Assembly: GCA_023132155.1 (NCBI GenBank)
Contig: JAGLYP010000018.1
Location: 1-43,006, forward strand
Origin: Candidatus Parcubacteria bacterium
GTDB taxonomy: Bacteria; Patescibacteriota; Patescibacteriia; Patescibacteriales; UBA12075
Reading direction: 5' to 3'
DNA: 43,006 nt
Shown here: one piece after another, positions 3,070 through 26,343 of the stretch
Layout: every line of letters starts with the position of its first letter
Position numbering within the stretch: position 1 is the stretch's first letter
Position numbers and translations under genes: made by a program
Notes under the pieces: generated by a model
Seen by the model: only the letters and a program-made list of their open reading frames with translations
Told to the model about the DNA's origin: nothing
Databases searched by the model: none

Positions 3070-4590
3070 ATGTCTTCAAAAGTCTTGTCAGCCGCGGTGA
3101 TTGGATTGGACGCGGAGATTGTTGAAGTTGAAGCTGATACCACGTCGGGCCAGCTTGGGACTTTCGCTGTTGTCGGCTTGCCTGACGCGGCTGTGTCGGA
3201 ATCGCGCGAAAGAGTGCGGACCGCGATTAATAATTCAGATTTTCCTTTTCCAAGGCGCAAAGTCGTTATTAATCTTGCTCCGGCGGATTTGCGAAAATAC
3301 GGCCCCAGTTACGACTTACCGATCGCGGTAAGTATTTTATTGTTGAAAGGTTTGATAATTTCAAAATTGGATTTTAAAAAAGCAATGTTTGCCGGCGAAT
3401 TGGCGCTAAACGGCTCACTCAGGCCGATACGCGGAATATTGCCGATTGCGATTAAGGCCTCGGAGGAGGGAATGAAATATTTATTTGTACCGAAAGAAAA
3501 CGCGCGCGAAGCTAAGCTTGTAAAAAATATTGAAGTAATTCCCGTAGAAAATATTAAACAGTTAATTTCGCATTTAGACGATAAGGAAAAAATAGAAGCG
3601 GCCAAGACAAGCGAATTTGATTTTCGCAACCAAAAAATTCAATTTGATATGGCGCATATCCGCGGACAAGAGCATGTAAAAAGAGCAATGGAAATATCCG
3701 CGGCAGGCGCGCACAATATGATGATGAGCGGTCCTCCGGGTTCGGGTAAGACTTTGATAGCCAGAACAATGCCTTCAATTTTGCCGAATTTAAAATTAAA
3801 AGAGGCTTTGGAAATTACGAAAATATACAGCGTGTCCGGCGAGTTAAATTCTAGCGAGTCATTGGTTACCAGCCGCCCTTTTCGTTCGCCGCATCATACA
3901 GCCTCCGGCGCTGCTTTGGTGGGCGGCGGCGCTTGGCCGCGTCCCGGAGAAATTTCCTTAGCTCATCGCGGAGTTTTGTTTTTAGATGAATTCGGCGAGT
4001 TTCCACGATCAATTTTGGAAAATTTGCGCCAGCCATTGGAGGATGGCATTATTCATATCAGCAGGGCGGCCGGAAATTTAAGTTTTCCGGCAAAATTTAT
4101 TTTAGTGGCGGCAATGAATCCTTGTCCTTGCGGTTATTTGGGCGATAAGAAAAAAAATTGCATTTGCTCGCAAACACAGATTATGAATTATAAAAAGAAA
4201 ATTTCCGGACCGATTATTGACCGCATTGATATTCATATTGAAGTGCCGCGCGTAAAATTTGAAAAATTATCAGAAGTCGCGAGGGGTGAAAAATCAACGG
4301 GCATAAAAATAAGGACGGAAAAAGCGCGGGAAATACAAAAACAAAGATTTAAAAATACTGAAATTTTAACTAATTCGGAAATGAGTTCGGAGGCGGTAAA
4401 ACAATTTTGCCAAATTGACAGCAGTTCAAAGCAACTTTTAAAAAACGCGGTTGAGCAAATGCATTTATCGGCTCGCGCCTATTTCCGCGTTTTAAAGCTT
4501 GCCCGCACAATCGCGGATTTAACGGAAGAAGAACAGATAAAAACCGCGCATATCGCCGAAGCCTTGCAGTATCGGCCGAAAGACACATAA
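3070..4590 (+). CDS. comM: YifB/ComM family Mg-chelatase-like AAA+ ATPase
   Basis: 506 aa; N-terminal Lon-like ChlI fold (VVGLPDAAVSESRERVRTAI), Walker A GPPGSGKT, FLDEFGEFPRSILENLRQPLEDG. Confidence 0.93.
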   Translation: MSSKVLSAAVIGLDAEIVEVEADTTSGQLGTFAVVGLPDAAVSESRERVRTAINNSDFPFPRRKVVINLAPADLRKYGPSYDLPIAVSILLLKGLIISKLDFKKAMFAGELALNGSLRPIRGILPIAIKASEEGMKYLFVPKENAREAKLVKNIEVIPVENIKQLISHLDDKEKIEAAKTSEFDFRNQKIQFDMAHIRGQEHVKRAMEISAAGAHNMMMSGPPGSGKTLIARTMPSILPNLKLKEALEITKIYSVSGELNSSESLVTSRPFRSPHHTASGAALVGGGAWPRPGEISLAHRGVLFLDEFGEFPRSILENLRQPLEDGIIHISRAAGNLSFPAKFILVAAMNPCPCGYLGDKKKNCICSQTQIMNYKKKISGPIIDRIDIHIEVPRVKFEKLSEVARGEKSTGIKIRTEKAREIQKQRFKNTEILTNSEMSSEAVKQFCQIDSSSKQLLKNAVEQMHLSARAYFRVLKLARTIADLTEEEQIKTAHIAEALQYRPKDT

Positions 4591-4656
4591 CATGCAACAC
4601 ATACCACACATCACATATCAAATTTATATTATATGATGCGTGCTGTGTGTTGCGTG
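4591..4656. repeat. Imperfect palindrome made of CACA/TGTG-rich simple sequence, downstream of comM
   Basis: CATGCAACACATACCACACATCACATAT versus ATATGATGCGTGCTGTGTGTTGCGTG pair with a few mismatches/wobbles. Confidence 0.5.
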
Positions 4657-4761
4657 ATGCGTGATTTGTGTTATAATATAAGCAAATTACAAGTTATGCC
4701 CAAAGGGCACTAACAGTAGTCGGGAATATTCAAATTCCTTGACTATAAATTATTATCATCT

Positions 4762-6219
4762 ATGCCTAAAAAAATAATAATTTTATTTACATTAATAACA
4801 ACGCTTTTTTTTATGGCCGGCTGCGGTTTAAGCGGAGTTGACAGCTCTGTAAAAAGATATATCAGGCCGGTTACTTTGAATTATTGGCGCGTTTGGGACG
4901 GTCCGGATGACTTTGGGGAAATAATTAACGCTTATACGCGCGCGCATCCTTTTGTTAAAATCAATTATCGCAAATTGCGCTATGAAGAATATGAGCAGGC
5001 TTTAATTGAGGCTTTCGCTACTGACAGAGGACCGGATATCTTTTCTATTCATAATACTTGGACAAGAAAATACCAAGAAAAAGGCCTGATCGCCCCTATG
5101 CCGGCAAATGTAAAAATGGCTTTCCCGTTTGTTAAAGGCAGTATTAAAAAAGAAGTAAAATGGGAATTAAAAAATTCGCCAATGCCGGTTACTCATAAAA
5201 TTAAAAGTGAATTTGTGGATGTAGTTTATGGCGATATAGTTATAATGTCGCGGGATAGCGATGGCCAGTATAAAGAAAATATTTTTGCCCTGCCTTTGTC
5301 AGTTGATACCTTGGCTATGTATTATAACAAAGACTTGTTTAATAATGCCGGAATTATATCCGCCCCTGAATATTGGAATCGCGAGTTTCAGCAGGATATT
5401 AAAAAATTGACCAAGCAGAATAATAAAGGAGAGATTGTCCAATCCGGCGCGGCTTTGGGAGGGAGTGATAATATTGAAAGATTTACGGATATTTTAGCTT
5501 TATTAATGATGCAAAGCGGCGCGGAAATGATGAATAAAAAACAAGTTACTTTTCATCAAATTCCGGGCTCTTTTGTTGACAAAAGCTATAATCCGGGCAT
5601 TGACGCTTTGCGCTTTTATTCGGATTTTTCTAATCCGGCTAAAGAGGTTTATAGCTGGAACAGCGCTTTGCAAAATTCTTTGGATATGTTTATTAATAAT
5701 AAGCTGGCAATTATGTTCGGCTATTCCTATATGCTTCCCGAGATAAAAGCGCGCGCGCCAAAATTAAATTTCGCGCTTGCGTCAATGCCGCAAATTGAAG
5801 GCGATTCTTTTGACGTTAATTTCGCGAATTATTGGGTGGAGGCTGTTTCCAGTAAAATTTTAACTAATGCCGATAATATTGCCCAAGGCAGCGGCTATGC
5901 CAAGCAAAAACTTAATACAGCATGGGATTTTGTTCGTTTTGCCGCTGAGGCTAAATATGTTAAAACTTATTTGGATAAAACAGGAAAACCAACCGCCAGA
6001 CGCTCATTAATCAAAGAACAGAGTGAAAATCCGGAATTGGCGGTTTTTGCCGATCAGCTTTTAACCGCGAAAAGCTGGTATAAGGGCGGCGATTCCAATG
6101 CTATGGAATTAATTTTTAAAGAAATGATAGATAGCGTAATTACCGGACAAGTTGAATTGCAAAAAGCGATATATTTGGCGGCCAGCAAAATACAGCAGAC
6201 GGTGAATACTTTTGATTAG
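4762..6219 (+). CDS. Extracellular solute-binding lipoprotein (ABC sugar-type)
   Basis: Lipobox-like LFFMAGCG; LNYWRVWDGPDDFGEIINAYTRAHPFVKINY, DIFSIHNTW, ALPLSVDTLAMYYNKDLF; no permease genes adjacent. Confidence 0.85.
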   Translation: MPKKIIILFTLITTLFFMAGCGLSGVDSSVKRYIRPVTLNYWRVWDGPDDFGEIINAYTRAHPFVKINYRKLRYEEYEQALIEAFATDRGPDIFSIHNTWTRKYQEKGLIAPMPANVKMAFPFVKGSIKKEVKWELKNSPMPVTHKIKSEFVDVVYGDIVIMSRDSDGQYKENIFALPLSVDTLAMYYNKDLFNNAGIISAPEYWNREFQQDIKKLTKQNNKGEIVQSGAALGGSDNIERFTDILALLMMQSGAEMMNKKQVTFHQIPGSFVDKSYNPGIDALRFYSDFSNPAKEVYSWNSALQNSLDMFINNKLAIMFGYSYMLPEIKARAPKLNFALASMPQIEGDSFDVNFANYWVEAVSSKILTNADNIAQGSGYAKQKLNTAWDFVRFAAEAKYVKTYLDKTGKPTARRSLIKEQSENPELAVFADQLLTAKSWYKGGDSNAMELIFKEMIDSVITGQVELQKAIYLAASKIQQTVNTFD

Positions 6220-19550: not shown

Positions 19551-20330
19551 TTACATTATATTTCTCTGCCGGACAATTTCAAATAAAATTATTGCGGCGC
19601 TGACTGAGGCATTCAAGGAATCAATTCTGCCGTTCATTGGTATTTTTATTTTATTATCGGCAAATTCAAGCCATTCTTTGCTCAAACCTTCATGTTCGGC
19701 GCCGATAATCAGCGCGCTTGCTTGTTTAAAATCATCATCATAATAAAGCTTATCAGTGTTTGGCGTGGCGGCAAAAGTATTGATATTTCTTTCTTTAAGC
19801 CATGAAAAAAGTTCTTTGTTTTTGCAAATCGCGATTTTATTGGTAAAAATCGCGCCTAAGCTTGAGCGGATAACATTTGGATTAAAAATGTCAGTTCGCG
19901 ATTCAGTGATAATTACCGCGTCGGCCCCCGCGGCGTCAGCGCTTCGTAAAATCGCGCCGATATTTCCCGGTTTTTCAATTGCTTCAAGAATTAGCAAAAA
20001 GGGATTTTTGCTTAATTTAATGTCTTTTAATTGAAAATTTTTTGTTTGCGCGATTGCCAAATATCCATCCGGATTTTCACGGAAAGATACTTTGCTAAAA
20101 ATTTCATTAGTAAGAGAATATTTTATAGTATCAGGAAAGCTATTAAGCTCTTTTTGATAAATATTTTCTGAAAAAAATAATTCTTTAACGCAAATTCCGG
20201 ATTTTTTTGCCAATTTAATTTCTTTTTCACCCTCAATTACAAACAAGCCTTCTTTTTTTCTTTTATTGCTTTTCCGCAGTTTATTAATTTCTTTGACTTT
20301 TATATTTTTAAGGCTGGTTATGATTTTCAT
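19551..20330 (-). CDS. SpoU/TrmH family RNA 2'-O-methyltransferase
   Basis: LLILEAIEKPGNIGAILRSADAAGADAVI, IIGAEHEGLSKEW, KIPMNGRIDSLNASVSAAIILFE. Confidence 0.95.
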   Translation of the reverse strand: MKIITSLKNIKVKEINKLRKSNKRKKEGLFVIEGEKEIKLAKKSGICVKELFFSENIYQKELNSFPDTIKYSLTNEIFSKVSFRENPDGYLAIAQTKNFQLKDIKLSKNPFLLILEAIEKPGNIGAILRSADAAGADAVIITESRTDIFNPNVIRSSLGAIFTNKIAICKNKELFSWLKERNINTFAATPNTDKLYYDDDFKQASALIIGAEHEGLSKEWLEFADNKIKIPMNGRIDSLNASVSAAIILFEIVRQRNIM

Positions 20331-21496
20331 GTTTTTGTTTGCAATTCATTTATTAATTTTATAAAAATCGCGTCAGTCCAGCCAAAACCTTTTTGAGTTG
20401 GATACCTTCCATCTTTACCTCTGTCTACAGTTACAACATTATATTTTTCCCAGAATGTTTTAGTTTTTTCAAAAACCTTTTTGTTCATTTCCAGCCATTT
20501 TTTGGCTAGTCTGTGAGCGTCTTTTTTAAATTCGTAATCTAATAATCCCCTAATCACAATCCATTGTTGATTAGGCCATCCATTAGGATAATCCCATTGT
20601 TTAAAAGTTTTTGATAATTTTTCTTTTTGAGTGTTGGCTAAACCTCCTCTGTATTCAAATATAGAAAGTTTGTCTTTAATTTTTTTAGCTTGTTTTTTTG
20701 TCGCTAATTTGGCCCAAAGAGGATAAAAACCGGCAAGAGAATAAAATTTGCTTTGTTCTTTGTTTTGATAATCATAATCAAAGAAAAAGCCTTCTTTTTC
20801 ATTCCACATCAATTTATTTATAGTCTCTTTTCTTTTTTCCGCTTTATCAAAGTAATACTTTTTTTTAGATTTATCTTTAAGCGCATTGTAAATAATAGAA
20901 AGATCTGATTCATATTTGAAAAGCAAGCAATTTAAATCAATAGGCAAAAAATCAAGACATCTTTCATTAAAACGCGAAGTCATATCCCAGCCTGATTCAT
21001 GTTCAGCGGTTAAATGCGTACGCCAATGATTGCAGTATCTAGATAGCTCTTTGTAGGCCTTATGAATTTTTTTGCTGTCCATCCAATAGTTTTTTAGCTC
21101 ATATTCCGCAACCTTTGCCATCTCTTGAAGCCATTTTTTGTCTTTTGTTTTATTAAAAACCTCGAAAATCATTGAAGTAAAGAAAGGTGGTTGTGAAACC
21201 CCCAAATTGTAATATCTATTTCTTGAGGGCATTATCCCAAACCTCTTGCAAAGATAAGCAAAATTATCAACCATTCCTTTTGCTAAATCAACTTTGCCAG
21301 ACTCTGTAAGCTCAAGGATTATAAAATAACTGTCCCAATAAAATTGGTCATTCTTAAAAATACCTTCGCTAGAAGACGGAGCTATAAAAGGATTTGGTAA
21401 ACCAAGATGAATACCTTCATCCTTAGGAAGATGGAACGTTAATTCTTTTCGATTGTTTTCTATATAGTCTATGCAATTTTTGTACTTTTTTTTCAT
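20327..21496 (-). CDS. Trehalase-like glycoside hydrolase (GH37-type)
   Basis: FIAPSSSEGIFKNDQFYWDSYF and QWDYPNGWPNQQW resemble the two trehalase signatures; RGKDGRYPTQKGFGWTDA. Confidence 0.85.
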   Translation of the reverse strand: MKKKYKNCIDYIENNRKELTFHLPKDEGIHLGLPNPFIAPSSSEGIFKNDQFYWDSYFIILELTESGKVDLAKGMVDNFAYLCKRFGIMPSRNRYYNLGVSQPPFFTSMIFEVFNKTKDKKWLQEMAKVAEYELKNYWMDSKKIHKAYKELSRYCNHWRTHLTAEHESGWDMTSRFNERCLDFLPIDLNCLLFKYESDLSIIYNALKDKSKKKYYFDKAEKRKETINKLMWNEKEGFFFDYDYQNKEQSKFYSLAGFYPLWAKLATKKQAKKIKDKLSIFEYRGGLANTQKEKLSKTFKQWDYPNGWPNQQWIVIRGLLDYEFKKDAHRLAKKWLEMNKKVFEKTKTFWEKYNVVTVDRGKDGRYPTQKGFGWTDAIFIKLINELQTKT

Positions 21497-21741
21497 TTAA
21501 ATATTTAATAAATCGAATAATTTAAAAATGTTTCTTTAGGCTCTTTTACGAATTTCATCTAACATATCGGCATCATCTGAAGTTTCCGCCTCTCTTTTTA
21601 GATTAATTTTAATAATGAGTTGAGGCGGAAATTTGCGTGAGCATTTGCTCGAATAGGCAAGCGCGAACCAGATATGCCGTGTTGTGTGTAGTGTTGTTCT
21701 TCTGATTGGCGATAGCCAAGCAGGTCGCCTGAATAGGCGAC

Positions 21742-22122
21742 ACAATAAAATATTTTTAGAGAGGAGGGGCGTTTAAATTATATTTCTTTTACCTCCTCAG
21801 GACTTAAAACAATACCATCGGTTTCTTCAATTTCACTCAAAGTACTTTTTAGAATGTCATATAGCCATGTTCCTTTTTCGTAGGCAGCCGCGAGTAAATT
21901 GTTAATTTCAACAATATACTCTTTTACACAGTTATCTGTTGCGGTTCTCCTGCTACAAAGAGGCTTGTTATACGACACTCCAAAAGGAGCTGTTTGAAGT
22001 TTGAATCCTAAAATTTCTTTTAAAATTTGTTTATCTAGCTTGTCAAAAATTGGAATATCAGGAATCTTGGTAATTTGTATAATCATGTTTCCTCCTCCGC
22101 CCCTCTAAAAATATTTTATTGT
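21742..22122. repeat. Cassette bounded by 20-bp perfect inverted repeats
   Basis: ACAATAAAATATTTTTAGAG (21742-21761) and CTCTAAAAATATTTTATTGT (22103-22122), plus inner GGGGCG/CGCCCC. Confidence 0.75.
21778..22086 (-). CDS. Hypothetical protein, 102 aa, inside inverted-repeat cassette
   Basis: ATG preceded by strong SD GGAGGAGGAAAC; ordinary amino-acid composition; no recognised family. Confidence 0.6.
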   Translation of the reverse strand: MIIQITKIPDIPIFDKLDKQILKEILGFKLQTAPFGVSYNKPLCSRRTATDNCVKEYIVEINNLLAAAYEKGTWLYDILKSTLSEIEETDGIVLSPEEVKEI

Positions 22123-22222
22123 TAAGAACAACATTTCGCCTAACAAGTTATATGTAAACTCGCCGTCTTTATATTTAAAATTAGTTAAAATTATTTTATA
22201 ATTATGCAATCAAATAGGAGGT

Positions 22223-22306
22223 ATGAATTCATTAAATATTAAAAGAAATACGGTTTTTGCAAGAGATTTGATGTGTTATTTGGAGCAGGATTTTTTAAAT
22301 TCGTAA
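22223..22306 (+). CDS. Possible 27-aa small ORF (or remnant of a gene start)
   Basis: AGGAGG-T-ATG; MNSLNIKRNTVFARDLMCYLEQDFLNS; SD spacing is unusually short. Confidence 0.2.
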   Translation: MNSLNIKRNTVFARDLMCYLEQDFLNS

Positions 22307-22390
22307 TTTTAGCGAAAAAATTATTGATATATATTTGTATTATAACAAAAAATTGTTAATATCCGCAAGGCGAATTCTCTTTAGCTACGC

Positions 22391-22425
22391 AAAAACACCG
22401 TTTTTAAGAGTCCAACGGTGTTTTT
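22391..22425. terminator. Bidirectional terminator
   Basis: AAAAACACCGTT TTTAAGAGTCC AACGGTGTTTTT. Confidence 0.8.
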
Positions 22426-22618
22426 GTTTTCCGGCCTTCCCGCAAAGGCAGGCCGGAATTTTATCCCCATGCTCACTTTGCCGCAAGAGCGGTAAAGTAA
22501 AAAGGAGATAAAAAAAGAGAAAAGAGGAGCTGCGCAGAAAAAATATTGCCTATTACCTACTTTTTTTATAGTTATTGCTGATCTTCTGTGCCGATGTATC
22601 TAGCACAGCCCCTTGCTT

Positions 22619-22638
22619 AGAGCCTTTTGGCTCTTTTT
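22619..22638 (+). terminator. Rho-independent terminator on plus strand
   Basis: AGAGCC TTTT GGCTCT TTTTT with no annotated gene upstream on this strand. Confidence 0.75.
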
Positions 22639-22642
22639 TGGG

Positions 22643-22704
22643 AAAGGACGAGTAAGCTGTTAATAGAGAAAGGACGAGTAAGTTGTTAATAGAGAAAGGA
22701 CGGG
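22643..22704. repeat. 26-bp tandem repeat, about 2.4 copies
   Basis: AAAGGACGAGTAAGCTGTTAATAGAG / AAAGGACGAGTAAGTTGTTAATAGAG / AAAGGACGGG. Confidence 0.9.
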
Positions 22705-22844
22705 TTACTCCATTAGTGGCTAATTGCGGCTCATTTTTATTTTGGCCGGCTTTTATTATTTATTAATTAAATAAAAATTTAATTAATAATAGCTAATAAA
22801 CTGGCGATAAGTTTATTAATTATTATTAATCAAAAATTTTGAAT

Positions 22845-23135
22845 TTATATAAAAGAACTGAAATTAGTTGAATTTATTTGACCGGCTTCTAATATATATA
22901 TTTGCTGGTTAATTTTTTGTTCAAGTCGGGTTTTTTTAAAAGAAGTATGCAATAAGCCTAGGCTATAAGCGGTAATGGTCACAATAAAAAAAGCAATGGA
23001 CATGCTAAGGAAAAGTCCAGCCCAGCTGAACTCCTGCTCCATTGCTTTCTTTTTTATGCTATTGTAATATTTCCAGCCGTTTTGACGGATATTGAAAAAA
23101 TTTTCCGGCTGAGAAATTTGTGTGTTAATATTCAT
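22845..23135 (-). CDS. Small single-pass membrane protein, hypothetical
   Basis: 96 aa; TM segment WAGLFLSMSIAFFIVTITAYSLGL; preceded by consensus-like promoter. Confidence 0.6.
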   Translation of the reverse strand: MNINTQISQPENFFNIRQNGWKYYNSIKKKAMEQEFSWAGLFLSMSIAFFIVTITAYSLGLLHTSFKKTRLEQKINQQIYILEAGQINSTNFSSFI

Positions 23136-23163
23136 TTTTATTTTTTGTTTTTATTTTCAGTCC

Positions 23164-23216
23164 ATAGTATTGTGGACTTATAATACTATTTTAGCAAATA
23201 TATCGTTGTTTGTCAA
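23164..23216 (-). promoter_or_regulatory. Promoter plus operator-like palindrome upstream of the 96-aa membrane protein
   Basis: Minus strand TTGACA-N17-TAAAAT; palindrome ATAGTATT-N10-AATACTAT (23164-23171/23182-23189) at the -10/start region. Confidence 0.6.
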
Positions 23217-23243
23217 TTGTGGATAATTATGAGAATAATTTGT

Positions 23244-24167: not shown

Positions 24168-24172
24168 ATTTT

Positions 24173-24218
24173 ATTTATGATTTATACCCGTCAAGCGAGT
24201 ACAAGTGATTTATGATTT
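24173..24218 (-). promoter_or_regulatory. TGTACTCG-CTTGA-CGGGT hairpin element, copy A (upstream of aldolase)
   Basis: Minus strand TGTACTCG CTTGA CGGGTATA flanked on both sides by AAATCAT-type heptamers. Confidence 0.75.
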
Positions 24219-24250
24219 AATTATACCGCTAAATGATTTTTTTAACAAAT

Positions 24251-25471
24251 TCAATCTTTATACCGCAAATCAAGCCCTTTGACGGCTTTTTTTTGGCAAG
24301 GCAAATGAATGGTAAAGGTAGATCCTTTTTCTTGTTTGCTTTCAACACTGATGTATCCGCCGTGCGCTTCGGCAATCCAGCGGCAAATAGAGAGCCCAAG
24401 TCCTGTTCCGCCTTCTTTTCTGGATCTGGCTTTGTCAACCCGGTAAAATCTTCCGAAAATATAAGGCAAATCTTCCTTGGGGATGCCAATGCCATTATCT
24501 TGAATATTGATTTTAACAAATTTGCTATTATTTTCTATCCAGATTTTGATTTTGCCTTTTTTTTCCGTATATTTAATGGCATTGCGTATAATATTTAATA
24601 ATAGTTTTTCCAATTTAGCTTCATCGCCAAAAATTTTAACGCGTTTGGCGTTTTTTTTGTAAATTAGGCGAATTTTTTTTTGCTCCGCTAAAATTTGTAA
24701 AGATTGGCTGGCGGCTCTAATCAGTTTTTTCAGATTCACTTCTTCGTAATGAAGGGTTTCGGTTTTAGCGTCAAAATTAGTCAATATGGTGAGATCGGAT
24801 AATACGCCGGTCATTCTTTTTATTTCATTTAGAATTAAAGTATAGGTTTCCGGAATTTTAGTTTGAGTGTTTTTTATTTCGCGGATGGCTAAATCAAGAT
24901 TGCCTTGTATAACTGTAAGCGGCGTACGCAGTTCATGCGAGGCATCGGCGATAAATTTTGATTTTAATTCAATTGCTTCCCTGAGCTTTTTATTTATAAC
25001 ATCAAGCTGTTTTGTCCTTTCCAGAACTTTTATTTCCAAATTTTTATTTAATTCCTGTAATCTTTGCTTGGTATGCATAGCTTCGGTGTTGTCCAAGGCA
25101 ATTGAAATCGCGCCATCAAGTTTTTTGTTATTATCAAAAAGGGGTACGGCAATAATATTTAAATGTTTTGTGTGCAAAGAAGAACTTTTTTTATAAAGCA
25201 GGCTTTCATAATAAAAAGGCTTGCCTTTTTCCAGCAAATTTTTATAGAGCTTTCTTAATTTTTGATTGTTTTTTATTTCATAGGTATCAGTTAGCTTGCT
25301 GTTGATTATAGGTCTTTGGGGTTTATCCATTAATTCCATAGCCAATCTGTTGGCGGTAATAATAGCTCCTTCTTTATTGAGCGCGACAACACTTACAGGG
25401 GCGCTGTCTAAAATTCTTCTATTAAATTCATTTAATTTTTTTGTTTTGCTAAATTTATTTATGATTGGCAT
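24251..25471 (-). CDS. PAS-domain sensor histidine kinase
   Basis: SHELRTPLTVIQGNL H-box, NIIRNAIKYTEKKGK, DNGIGIPKEDL, GGTGLGLSICRWIAEAHGG. Confidence 0.95.
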   Translation of the reverse strand: MPIINKFSKTKKLNEFNRRILDSAPVSVVALNKEGAIITANRLAMELMDKPQRPIINSKLTDTYEIKNNQKLRKLYKNLLEKGKPFYYESLLYKKSSSLHTKHLNIIAVPLFDNNKKLDGAISIALDNTEAMHTKQRLQELNKNLEIKVLERTKQLDVINKKLREAIELKSKFIADASHELRTPLTVIQGNLDLAIREIKNTQTKIPETYTLILNEIKRMTGVLSDLTILTNFDAKTETLHYEEVNLKKLIRAASQSLQILAEQKKIRLIYKKNAKRVKIFGDEAKLEKLLLNIIRNAIKYTEKKGKIKIWIENNSKFVKINIQDNGIGIPKEDLPYIFGRFYRVDKARSRKEGGTGLGLSICRWIAEAHGGYISVESKQEKGSTFTIHLPCQKKAVKGLDLRYKD

Positions 25472-25483
25472 ATTAGCTCGTTT

Positions 25484-26167
25484 TTATTTTTTACGACTTT
25501 TATCTTGAATTTTATATCCGACATCGCGCACGGTATGAATTAGTTTTTTCTGAAAGCTGCTATCTAGTTTTTTCCTTAAATAGCTGATATAAACATCAAT
25601 TACATTAGACTCATCAGTAAAATTATAACCCCAAATATGTTCACCGATCATAGTGCGTGTGCAGACATGTCCCGGTCGGCGCATCATATAGTCAAGCAGG
25701 CGATACTCTTTACTGGATAAATTAATTTCTTTGTCGTTGCGATAAACTTCGTGTTTAGCCGGGTCCAAAACCAAATTTCCAACCCGCAATTTTGTGCTTT
25801 TAACTAATTTTTCCCGTCTAAGCAAAGCGCGGATACGGGCGACTAACTCGCCAAAGGCAAAAGGTTTTATTAAATAATCATCAGCCCCGGCATCCAGCCC
25901 TTTGATTCTATCTTCAATCGTGTCGCGCGCTGTTAGCATAATAATCGGCGTGTCAATCCTTTTTTCCCTAATTTGGCGGCAAGTTTCAATTCCGTCAATT
26001 TTCGGTATCATAATATCCAGGATAATCAAATCATAATTATTTATTTCCGCTTTTTCCAAGCCTTCTTCGCCGTCATAAGCCGTGTCAACGGTATAATGCT
26101 CCATCTCCAGGCCCTTTTTAATAAAACGAGTAATTTTAACCTCATCTTCAACAACTAAAATAGTCAT
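25484..26167 (-). CDS. OmpR/PhoB-family response regulator
   Basis: ILVVEDEVKITRFIKKGLEMEHYTVDTAYDGEEGLE, LIILDIMIPKIDGIE, winged-helix C-terminus YISYLRKKLD. Confidence 0.97.
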   Translation of the reverse strand: MTILVVEDEVKITRFIKKGLEMEHYTVDTAYDGEEGLEKAEINNYDLIILDIMIPKIDGIETCRQIREKRIDTPIIMLTARDTIEDRIKGLDAGADDYLIKPFAFGELVARIRALLRREKLVKSTKLRVGNLVLDPAKHEVYRNDKEINLSSKEYRLLDYMMRRPGHVCTRTMIGEHIWGYNFTDESNVIDVYISYLRKKLDSSFQKKLIHTVRDVGYKIQDKSRKK

Positions 26168-26299
26168 AAATTTTTTTGCTTAGTATATTATAATTATACT
26201 ATATTATGGTAATATTAGAAATATGTTAAATTCAAGTCTAAATTTAAGCCTATTTACTCAATTAAACTATTTTGTTAATATAATTAAAGATTAAATTTT

Positions 26300-26337
26300 A
26301 AATCACTTGTACTCGCTTGACGGGTATAAATCATAAA
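26300..26337 (+). promoter_or_regulatory. TGTACTCG-CTTGA-CGGGT hairpin element, copy B (upstream of ychF)
   Basis: AAATCACTTGTACTCGCTTGACGGGTATAAATCATAAAT, essentially identical to copy A. Confidence 0.75.
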
Positions 26338-26343
26338 TAAATT

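Follow-up and report, generated by a model that had tools for sequence, protein, structure and literature searches.

A gene cassette with complementary ends in an apparent decayed integron-like locus of a Parcubacteria genome

An inverted repeat between two recombination-site-like sequences

The window, i.e. the whole stretch of DNA analysed here, covers 43,006 nucleotides of contig JAGLYP010000018.1 of Candidatus Parcubacteria bacterium (assembly GCA_023132155.1), a tiny uncultured member of the Patescibacteria. A sequence-only reading had reported a 102-aa ORF as the only gene between 20-bp perfect inverted repeats, with GGGGCG/CGCCCC just inside the repeats and a strong Shine-Dalgarno sequence, and had considered a mobile cassette, a MITE-like passenger element or an RNA-controlled small gene. 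The features themselves are present at the coordinates given in Table 1. The left arm reads ACAATAAAATATTTTTAGAG and is matched at the right by its exact reverse complement, the 102-aa ORF is the sole ORF between them and its Shine-Dalgarno sequence is GGAGGAGG. GGGGCG and CGCCCC lie immediately inward of the arms, though their register is shifted by a bulge of 5-6 nt. In 100 simulations of the window with a first-order Markov model, no perfect inverted repeat of at least 20 bp arose within 2.5 kb, the longest being 18 bp. The helix extends outward with interruptions, as TGTTGTTCTT forms an extra 10-bp pairing with its complement, and a 40-nt insertion containing two small hairpins is found on the 3' side of the helix alone.

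Table 1. Coordinates of the features of the cassette locus in the window.
Feature	Position	Strand	Basis
Cassette ORF P0001, 102 aa, orphan	21778..22086	-	ORF call and homologue searches
Inner 5' arm, 20 bp, perfect	22103..22122	-	repeat search
Inner 3' arm, perfect complement of the inner 5' arm	21742..21761	-	repeat search
Outer 5' arm, begins 4 nt (GAAA) past the R' box	22124..22133	-
Outer 3' arm, complement of the outer 5' arm, stops 4 nt short of the R'' box	21692..21701	-
3'-side insertion, two small hairpins, in the gap between inner and outer arm	21702..21741	-
R' box GTTAGGC, putative attI/cassette junction	22138..22144	-	position matches attI of contigs C9 and C41 and of relatives
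attI-like site	22133..22228	-	76-80% identity to attI adjoining intact integrases (L017, L024, L033, L037)
R'' box ACACAAC	21681..21687	-
attC-like site, R'' ACACAAC ... AACTTCAGATGATGCCGATAT GTTAGAT (R')	21557..21687	-	sequence motif
XerA-type integrase gene remnant (start codon region and IRNFSEKIIDIYLYYNKKLL...), divergent from attI	22223..22373	+
2.05-kb segment missing in G002: trehalase, attC, cassette, attI and integrase remnant	20340..22389	.

The encoded protein is an orphan. It has no match in Pfam, NCBIfam or PHROGs, and the homologue search proposed in the sequence-only reading revealed no relative beyond chance level in GTDB contigs, IMG/VR, plasmids or 192 relative genomes. Nothing relevant emerged from an Rfam search.

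Read along the minus strand, the locus begins with an attI-like site ending in GTTAGGC, which is followed by GAAA, the outer arm, the inner arm, the Shine-Dalgarno sequence and the ORF. Downstream of the ORF come the inner arm, the insertion, the outer arm, the tetranucleotide CTAC, the R'' box ACACAAC and an attC-like site that ends in GTTAGAT. Divergently from the attI-like site lies the remnant of an integrase gene, of which 20 codons are 70% identical to an integrase of a relative (G045; tblastn, E 4e-6) and whose start region matches other attI-integrase junctions at 76-80% DNA identity. Since attI, attC, cassette and integrase remnant occur together, the window appears to hold a decayed, complete integron-like locus with a single cassette. 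The R' and R'' boxes of this cassette are not complementary to each other, so the copy in the window may be inactive.

Comparison with relatives, as the sequence-only reading had suggested, uncovered an empty site. In the same-genus genome G002, about 25 bp lie between the equivalents of window positions 20339 and 22390 (L204), where the window carries 2.05 kb. The site is flanked by an rRNA-methylase gene (window 19551-20330) and by the leader before a DeoC-family gene; this leader has diverged and the junction alignment displays no clear target duplication. What the site reports is gain or loss of the entire 2.05-kb unit only, and gain in the window is indistinguishable from loss in G002. 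The missing segment also includes a trehalase gene (window 20327-21496) located between attC and the methylase gene. None of 11 genomes of the same genus or family has a match to it, so its synteny is unusable; the gene may be another cassette, truncated at its distal end.

Two further features were noticed in the vicinity. An 838-bp leader block (window 22389-23226), which reaches from the integron remnant to the DeoC-family gene, is inverted relative to the DeoC-family gene in G001, another genome of the genus (L203:7416-8225), which suggests a segment able to flip. At window 24170-26341, a 43-bp perfect inverted repeat (TTTATTTATGATTTATACCCGTCAAGCGAGTACAAGTGATTTA) surrounds a histidine kinase/response regulator pair, each arm being placed directly upstream of the neighbouring gene (DeoC-family and YchF, respectively). 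This is a dispersed repeat, since the genome contains 22 occurrences of its 26-nt core at up to three mismatches and the control none.

Cassette arrays with private complementary ends

Searching the genome with the sequence to the right of the repeat retrieved an 81% copy on contig C41, where it heads an array of small genes with attC-like palindromes between them. On contig C9 the same type of site is located directly upstream of a divergent tyrosine recombinase gene, and the next cassette is a 139-aa ORF inside a 22-bp perfect repeat. The arrangement of attI beside an integrase gene with cassettes leading away occurs at C9 and also in the relatives G002, G005, G011 and G176. In C9 and the relatives, attI is a conserved AT-rich site that ends in GTTRNRY and is divergent from the integrase.

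Of 381 genomes of the class, 103 contain the right-half pattern of attC (AACTTC...GTTRNRYKAAAT). A stricter form of it matched about 9 of 180 further Patescibacteria and nothing in the control. In the arrays, 57 sites are identified by their sequence and pairing as imperfect palindromes with R'', L'', L' and R' elements. The longest ORF points in the direction of the array in 39 of the 43 cassettes of at least 200 nt, and the cargo (NUDIX proteins, methyltransferases, GNAT proteins, a deaminase and transporters) is typical of integrons. Three IMG/VR contigs (L205, L206 and L207) contain the right-half motif as well, and it is possible that viruses of these hosts carry cassettes.

The ends of these cassettes are complementary to each other. 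To delimit cassettes, only the R' 7-mer and its complement after approximately CATC were used, never the arms. The mean local score of end pairing amounted to 17.2, compared to 8.2 with permuted partners (n = 43 cassettes), and a score of at least 15 was reached by 27 of the 43 as against 1.4% in the permuted control. The helix begins exactly 4 nt from both boxes in 20 of 43 cassettes (control 0.5%), an offset that the outer arm in the window obeys too. Across positions, offsets 0-1 are paired and offsets 2-3 consistently mismatched, and at offsets 4-14 between 74 and 93% of the cassettes show complementarity. After removal of nested spans with a shared right end (100% overlap) in L150 (G006:C4, ~4410-5505) and L151 (G302:C12), 40 non-redundant cassettes remained, in which 380 of 440 positions (86%) at offsets 4-14 are Watson-Crick pairs compared to 35% after permutation. 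The complementarity is private to each cassette, because arm sequences mostly differ from one cassette to another. The sequence-only reading had envisaged copies of the repeat elsewhere: as letters they are absent, the two arms themselves being the only matches of the exact sequence in the genome, and as an architecture they recur with different arm sequences in the cassette arrays of the genome and its relatives. Cassettes without an ORF, 26-98 nt in length, likewise have complementary ends.

Three canonical cassettes, one of the OXA-2 type in plasmid R46 and two from Colwellia, served as a small control and lack arms (scores 6-8). They are all that a core-box method yielded; this method was used in place of a general search for canonical attC sites, which had missed even those of R46. 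Among 80 loci of distant integrase relatives, many of which may have no array, one locus gave two matches to arms. In the locus of Aquiflexum sp. TKW24L (L078:169-538), overlapping inverted repeats of 17-18 bp occur about 9.5 kb from the recombinase gene.

A second location of genes became apparent from the attC sites. The inner loops of 27 candidates measure 291-2001 nt, compared to 45-181 nt in the remainder, and approximately 20 of the 27 enclose an ORF with its own private arms, which start 12-16 nt after the beginning of the inner stem. Judged from these sequences, genes appear to reside inside the attC loop as well as between sites. Near-identical end modules were found around unrelated ORFs in different genomes.

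Recombinase and folding of the cassettes

The genome encodes two Phage_integrase proteins, neither of which is a canonical IntI. One, at C21, is XerC/D-like. The other, the C9 integrase (G000:C9:4638-5483), passes the XerA model NF040815 (244 bits, cut-off 220), annotated as 'site-specific tyrosine recombinase/integron integrase', and falls below the cut-off of the integron-integrase model TIGR02249 (201 versus 265 bits). Aligned to IntI4 (2A3V), a profile built from 12 relatives splits into two pieces and has 19 residues in place of the 61 of IntI4, so that about 42 residues are missing from the C9-type recombinase; the same profile aligns end to end with the XerA-type structures 4A8E and 5HXY. 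It follows from these two alignments that the IntI-specific insertion is absent, and the C9 integrase thus lacks the IntI domain of integrons. At C9, the genome that carries the cassette arrays retains an intact XerA-type recombinase beside its own attI. Among the 192 relatives, 28 encode this recombinase at E <= 1e-60. Many of the copies are at the end of a contig, which repeat-rich arrays alongside would lead one to expect. The host family includes Candidatus Falkowbacteria RIFOXYD12_FULL_34_57. By inspection, co-occurrence of integrase and attC motif at the genome level is modest, and for many arrays the contig carries no integrase.

Folding of single strands was computed with DNA energies. 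On linear single-stranded DNA, the R' and R'' boxes of the same cassette are predicted to pair across the ORF with a mean probability of 0.90 over 19 cassettes, and shuffling the 5' arm lowers this value to 0.45. This supports the view that the arms would tether the two ends of a cassette to each other on linear single strands. Two further ideas were discarded. In the excised circle, treated as a single strand, R-box pairing is 0.99 with and 0.98 without arms, which gives no support to a need for the arms in attC folding there. For attC stems with an ORF inside, the corresponding values are 0.96 and 0.95, and a requirement of the arms for closing attC around the loop ORF has no thermodynamic support.

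Interpretation and relation to known systems

Our preferred reading, which we hold to be probable, is that the window contains a decayed integron-like locus with one gene cassette, the arms of which pair across the ORF as a hairpin unit, most likely for excision or capture from single-stranded DNA. The anatomy of the cassette, the anchoring of the arms to the boxes, their private complementarity, the recurrence of the architecture and the empty site are direct observations, and the pairing of the boxes across the ORF is computed. The 'mobile cassette' of the sequence-only reading holds in kind, as an integron-type cassette that extends from an attI-like to an attC-like site and has an empty counterpart in a genome of the same genus. 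A XerA-type tyrosine recombinase, intact at C9, would recombine attI with the folded attC in an IntI-like manner; enzyme and attI/attC-like sites are linked only by their position. In the presumed cassette plan of the lineage, R'-GAAA-arm-ORF-arm'-CATC-R'', the arms would pair across the ORF on a single strand, loop out the gene and bring the two boxes of one cassette into opposition. Folded into a closed hairpin, the cassette would most likely be presented as a unit that can be excised or captured from single-stranded DNA. We infer that the arms serve recombination, and they may promote excision or capture as one unit. Because folding does not show that they are needed in the circle or in attC sites with an ORF, the arms could instead lock cassettes rather than mobilise them, or be a by-product of cassette origin.

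The by-product explanation holds that the complementarity arose when ORFs were inserted at hairpin tips or palindromes were corrected at replication forks, and that it has no function of its own. It fits the hairpins already formed by ORF-less cassettes and ORF-less attC loops, the unrelated ORFs in the same end modules and the near-perfect Watson-Crick pairing without wobble, as template-switch correction would produce; however, the fixed helix start at offset 4, shared by different cassettes and genomes, points to a constraint linked to the recombination boxes, and we regard this origin alone as unlikely. Quite improbable is a role in RNA, in which the 5' and 3' untranslated regions of a cassette transcript pair and protect, process (as an RNase III stalk) or regulate the mRNA. 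Arms lie near start and stop codons in many cassettes, so that a read-through transcript would hold both, but they keep a fixed offset from the recombination boxes, whereas they stand anywhere from -7 to 195 nt from the start codon. Arms are also found in cassettes that have no ORF, some lie upstream of TATAAT-like sites (by eye), and mispairs in cassette arms comprise 32 top-strand G.T and 33 A.C, i.e. no enrichment of G.U; the small numbers for ORFs inside attC are 16 G.T and 8 A.C. The anchoring to boxes, the presence without ORFs and the missing G.U excess on the mRNA strand make an RNA role less likely, and the 'RNA-controlled small gene' of the sequence-only reading finds no support in them.

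The arms might also work in an excised double-stranded circle, where arm'-CATC-R''-attC-R'-GAAA-arm forms one continuous palindrome, so that they would flank attC, lengthen its stem and aid cruciform extrusion and re-insertion. Extrusion from double-stranded DNA does limit recombination of some attC sites in canonical integrons (PMC8946536), which speaks for this possibility. The arms nevertheless shift R-box pairing merely from 0.98 to 0.99 in the single-strand model, and we consider a function of this kind rather improbable. A MITE or another transposable element with terminal inverted repeats would account for a short segment bounded by inverted repeats and for the empty site in the same-genus genome. 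This explanation is extremely unlikely and was rejected: the two arms have no further copy in the genome and thus no shared terminal repeats, the inserted unit of 2.05 kb neither ends at nor with the arms, and attI, attC and an integrase remnant are present. The 'MITE-like passenger element' has to be abandoned accordingly, the arms being private to the cassette and the ends of the element being attI and attC sites.

More tentatively, and with somewhat less confidence than we place in the preferred reading, the Patescibacteria may possess a separate integron lineage. Its XerA-type recombinase would lack the IntI domain, its cassettes would be DNA hairpin or dumbbell units with the gene always in a terminal loop, either between or inside attC sites, and its arms would provide mutual recognition of the ends. 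Single-stranded DNA and attC folding are limiting factors for integrons, and the penalty for long attC loops can reach four orders of magnitude under replicative conditions (PMC8946536). With whole genes inside attC, each closed by its own hairpin, this lineage apparently met the folding problem differently. If true, this would explain the flexible gene reservoir kept by genome-reduced Patescibacteria. The arms would also offer a searchable signal of cassette boundaries, and breaking or restoring their pairing would be an experimentally simple handle. The literature searched, which was thin on subscription journals and did not include bioRxiv preprints, contained no description of integrons or attC in Patescibacteria/CPR or of inverted repeats flanking cassettes; such a negative does not prove novelty.

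MITEs resemble the locus in the short segment between inverted repeats and differ from it in that the arms here form no family and the bounds are attI and attC. With XerA and archaeal XerC-like recombinases (NF040815; 4A8E, 5HXY), the likeness lies in the cut-off passed by the C9 integrase and in the end-to-end alignment of its family profile; what differs is its place here, next to cassette arrays and an attI-like site, in a genome that has a second, XerC/D-like recombinase. Archaeal integrons (Ghaly et al., 2022, PMC9668308) likewise lie beyond the classical proteobacterial range. Archaeal IntIs are stated in that paper to carry the IntI-specific domain, unlike the recombinase described here, and its text mentions neither inverted repeats nor Patescibacteria. 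According to Messier and Roy (2001, as cited in PMC9668308), integrons need this domain to recombine. The closest likeness is to class 1 and sedentary chromosomal integrons, with which the locus shares an attI adjoining a tyrosine recombinase gene, attC-like imperfect palindromes with R'' (RYNYAAC) and R' (GTTRNRY) boxes, and arrays of mostly co-oriented small ORFs with NUDIX, GNAT and methyltransferase cargo. It is set apart from them by a recombinase without the IntI-specific insertion (19 residues versus 61 in IntI4), by private complementary arms at the cassette ends, which are absent from three canonical cassettes, and by ORFs that are also found inside the attC loop. The element would work like an integron cassette; as a strict definition that demands the IntI-specific domain excludes membership, it is called integron-like rather than an integron.
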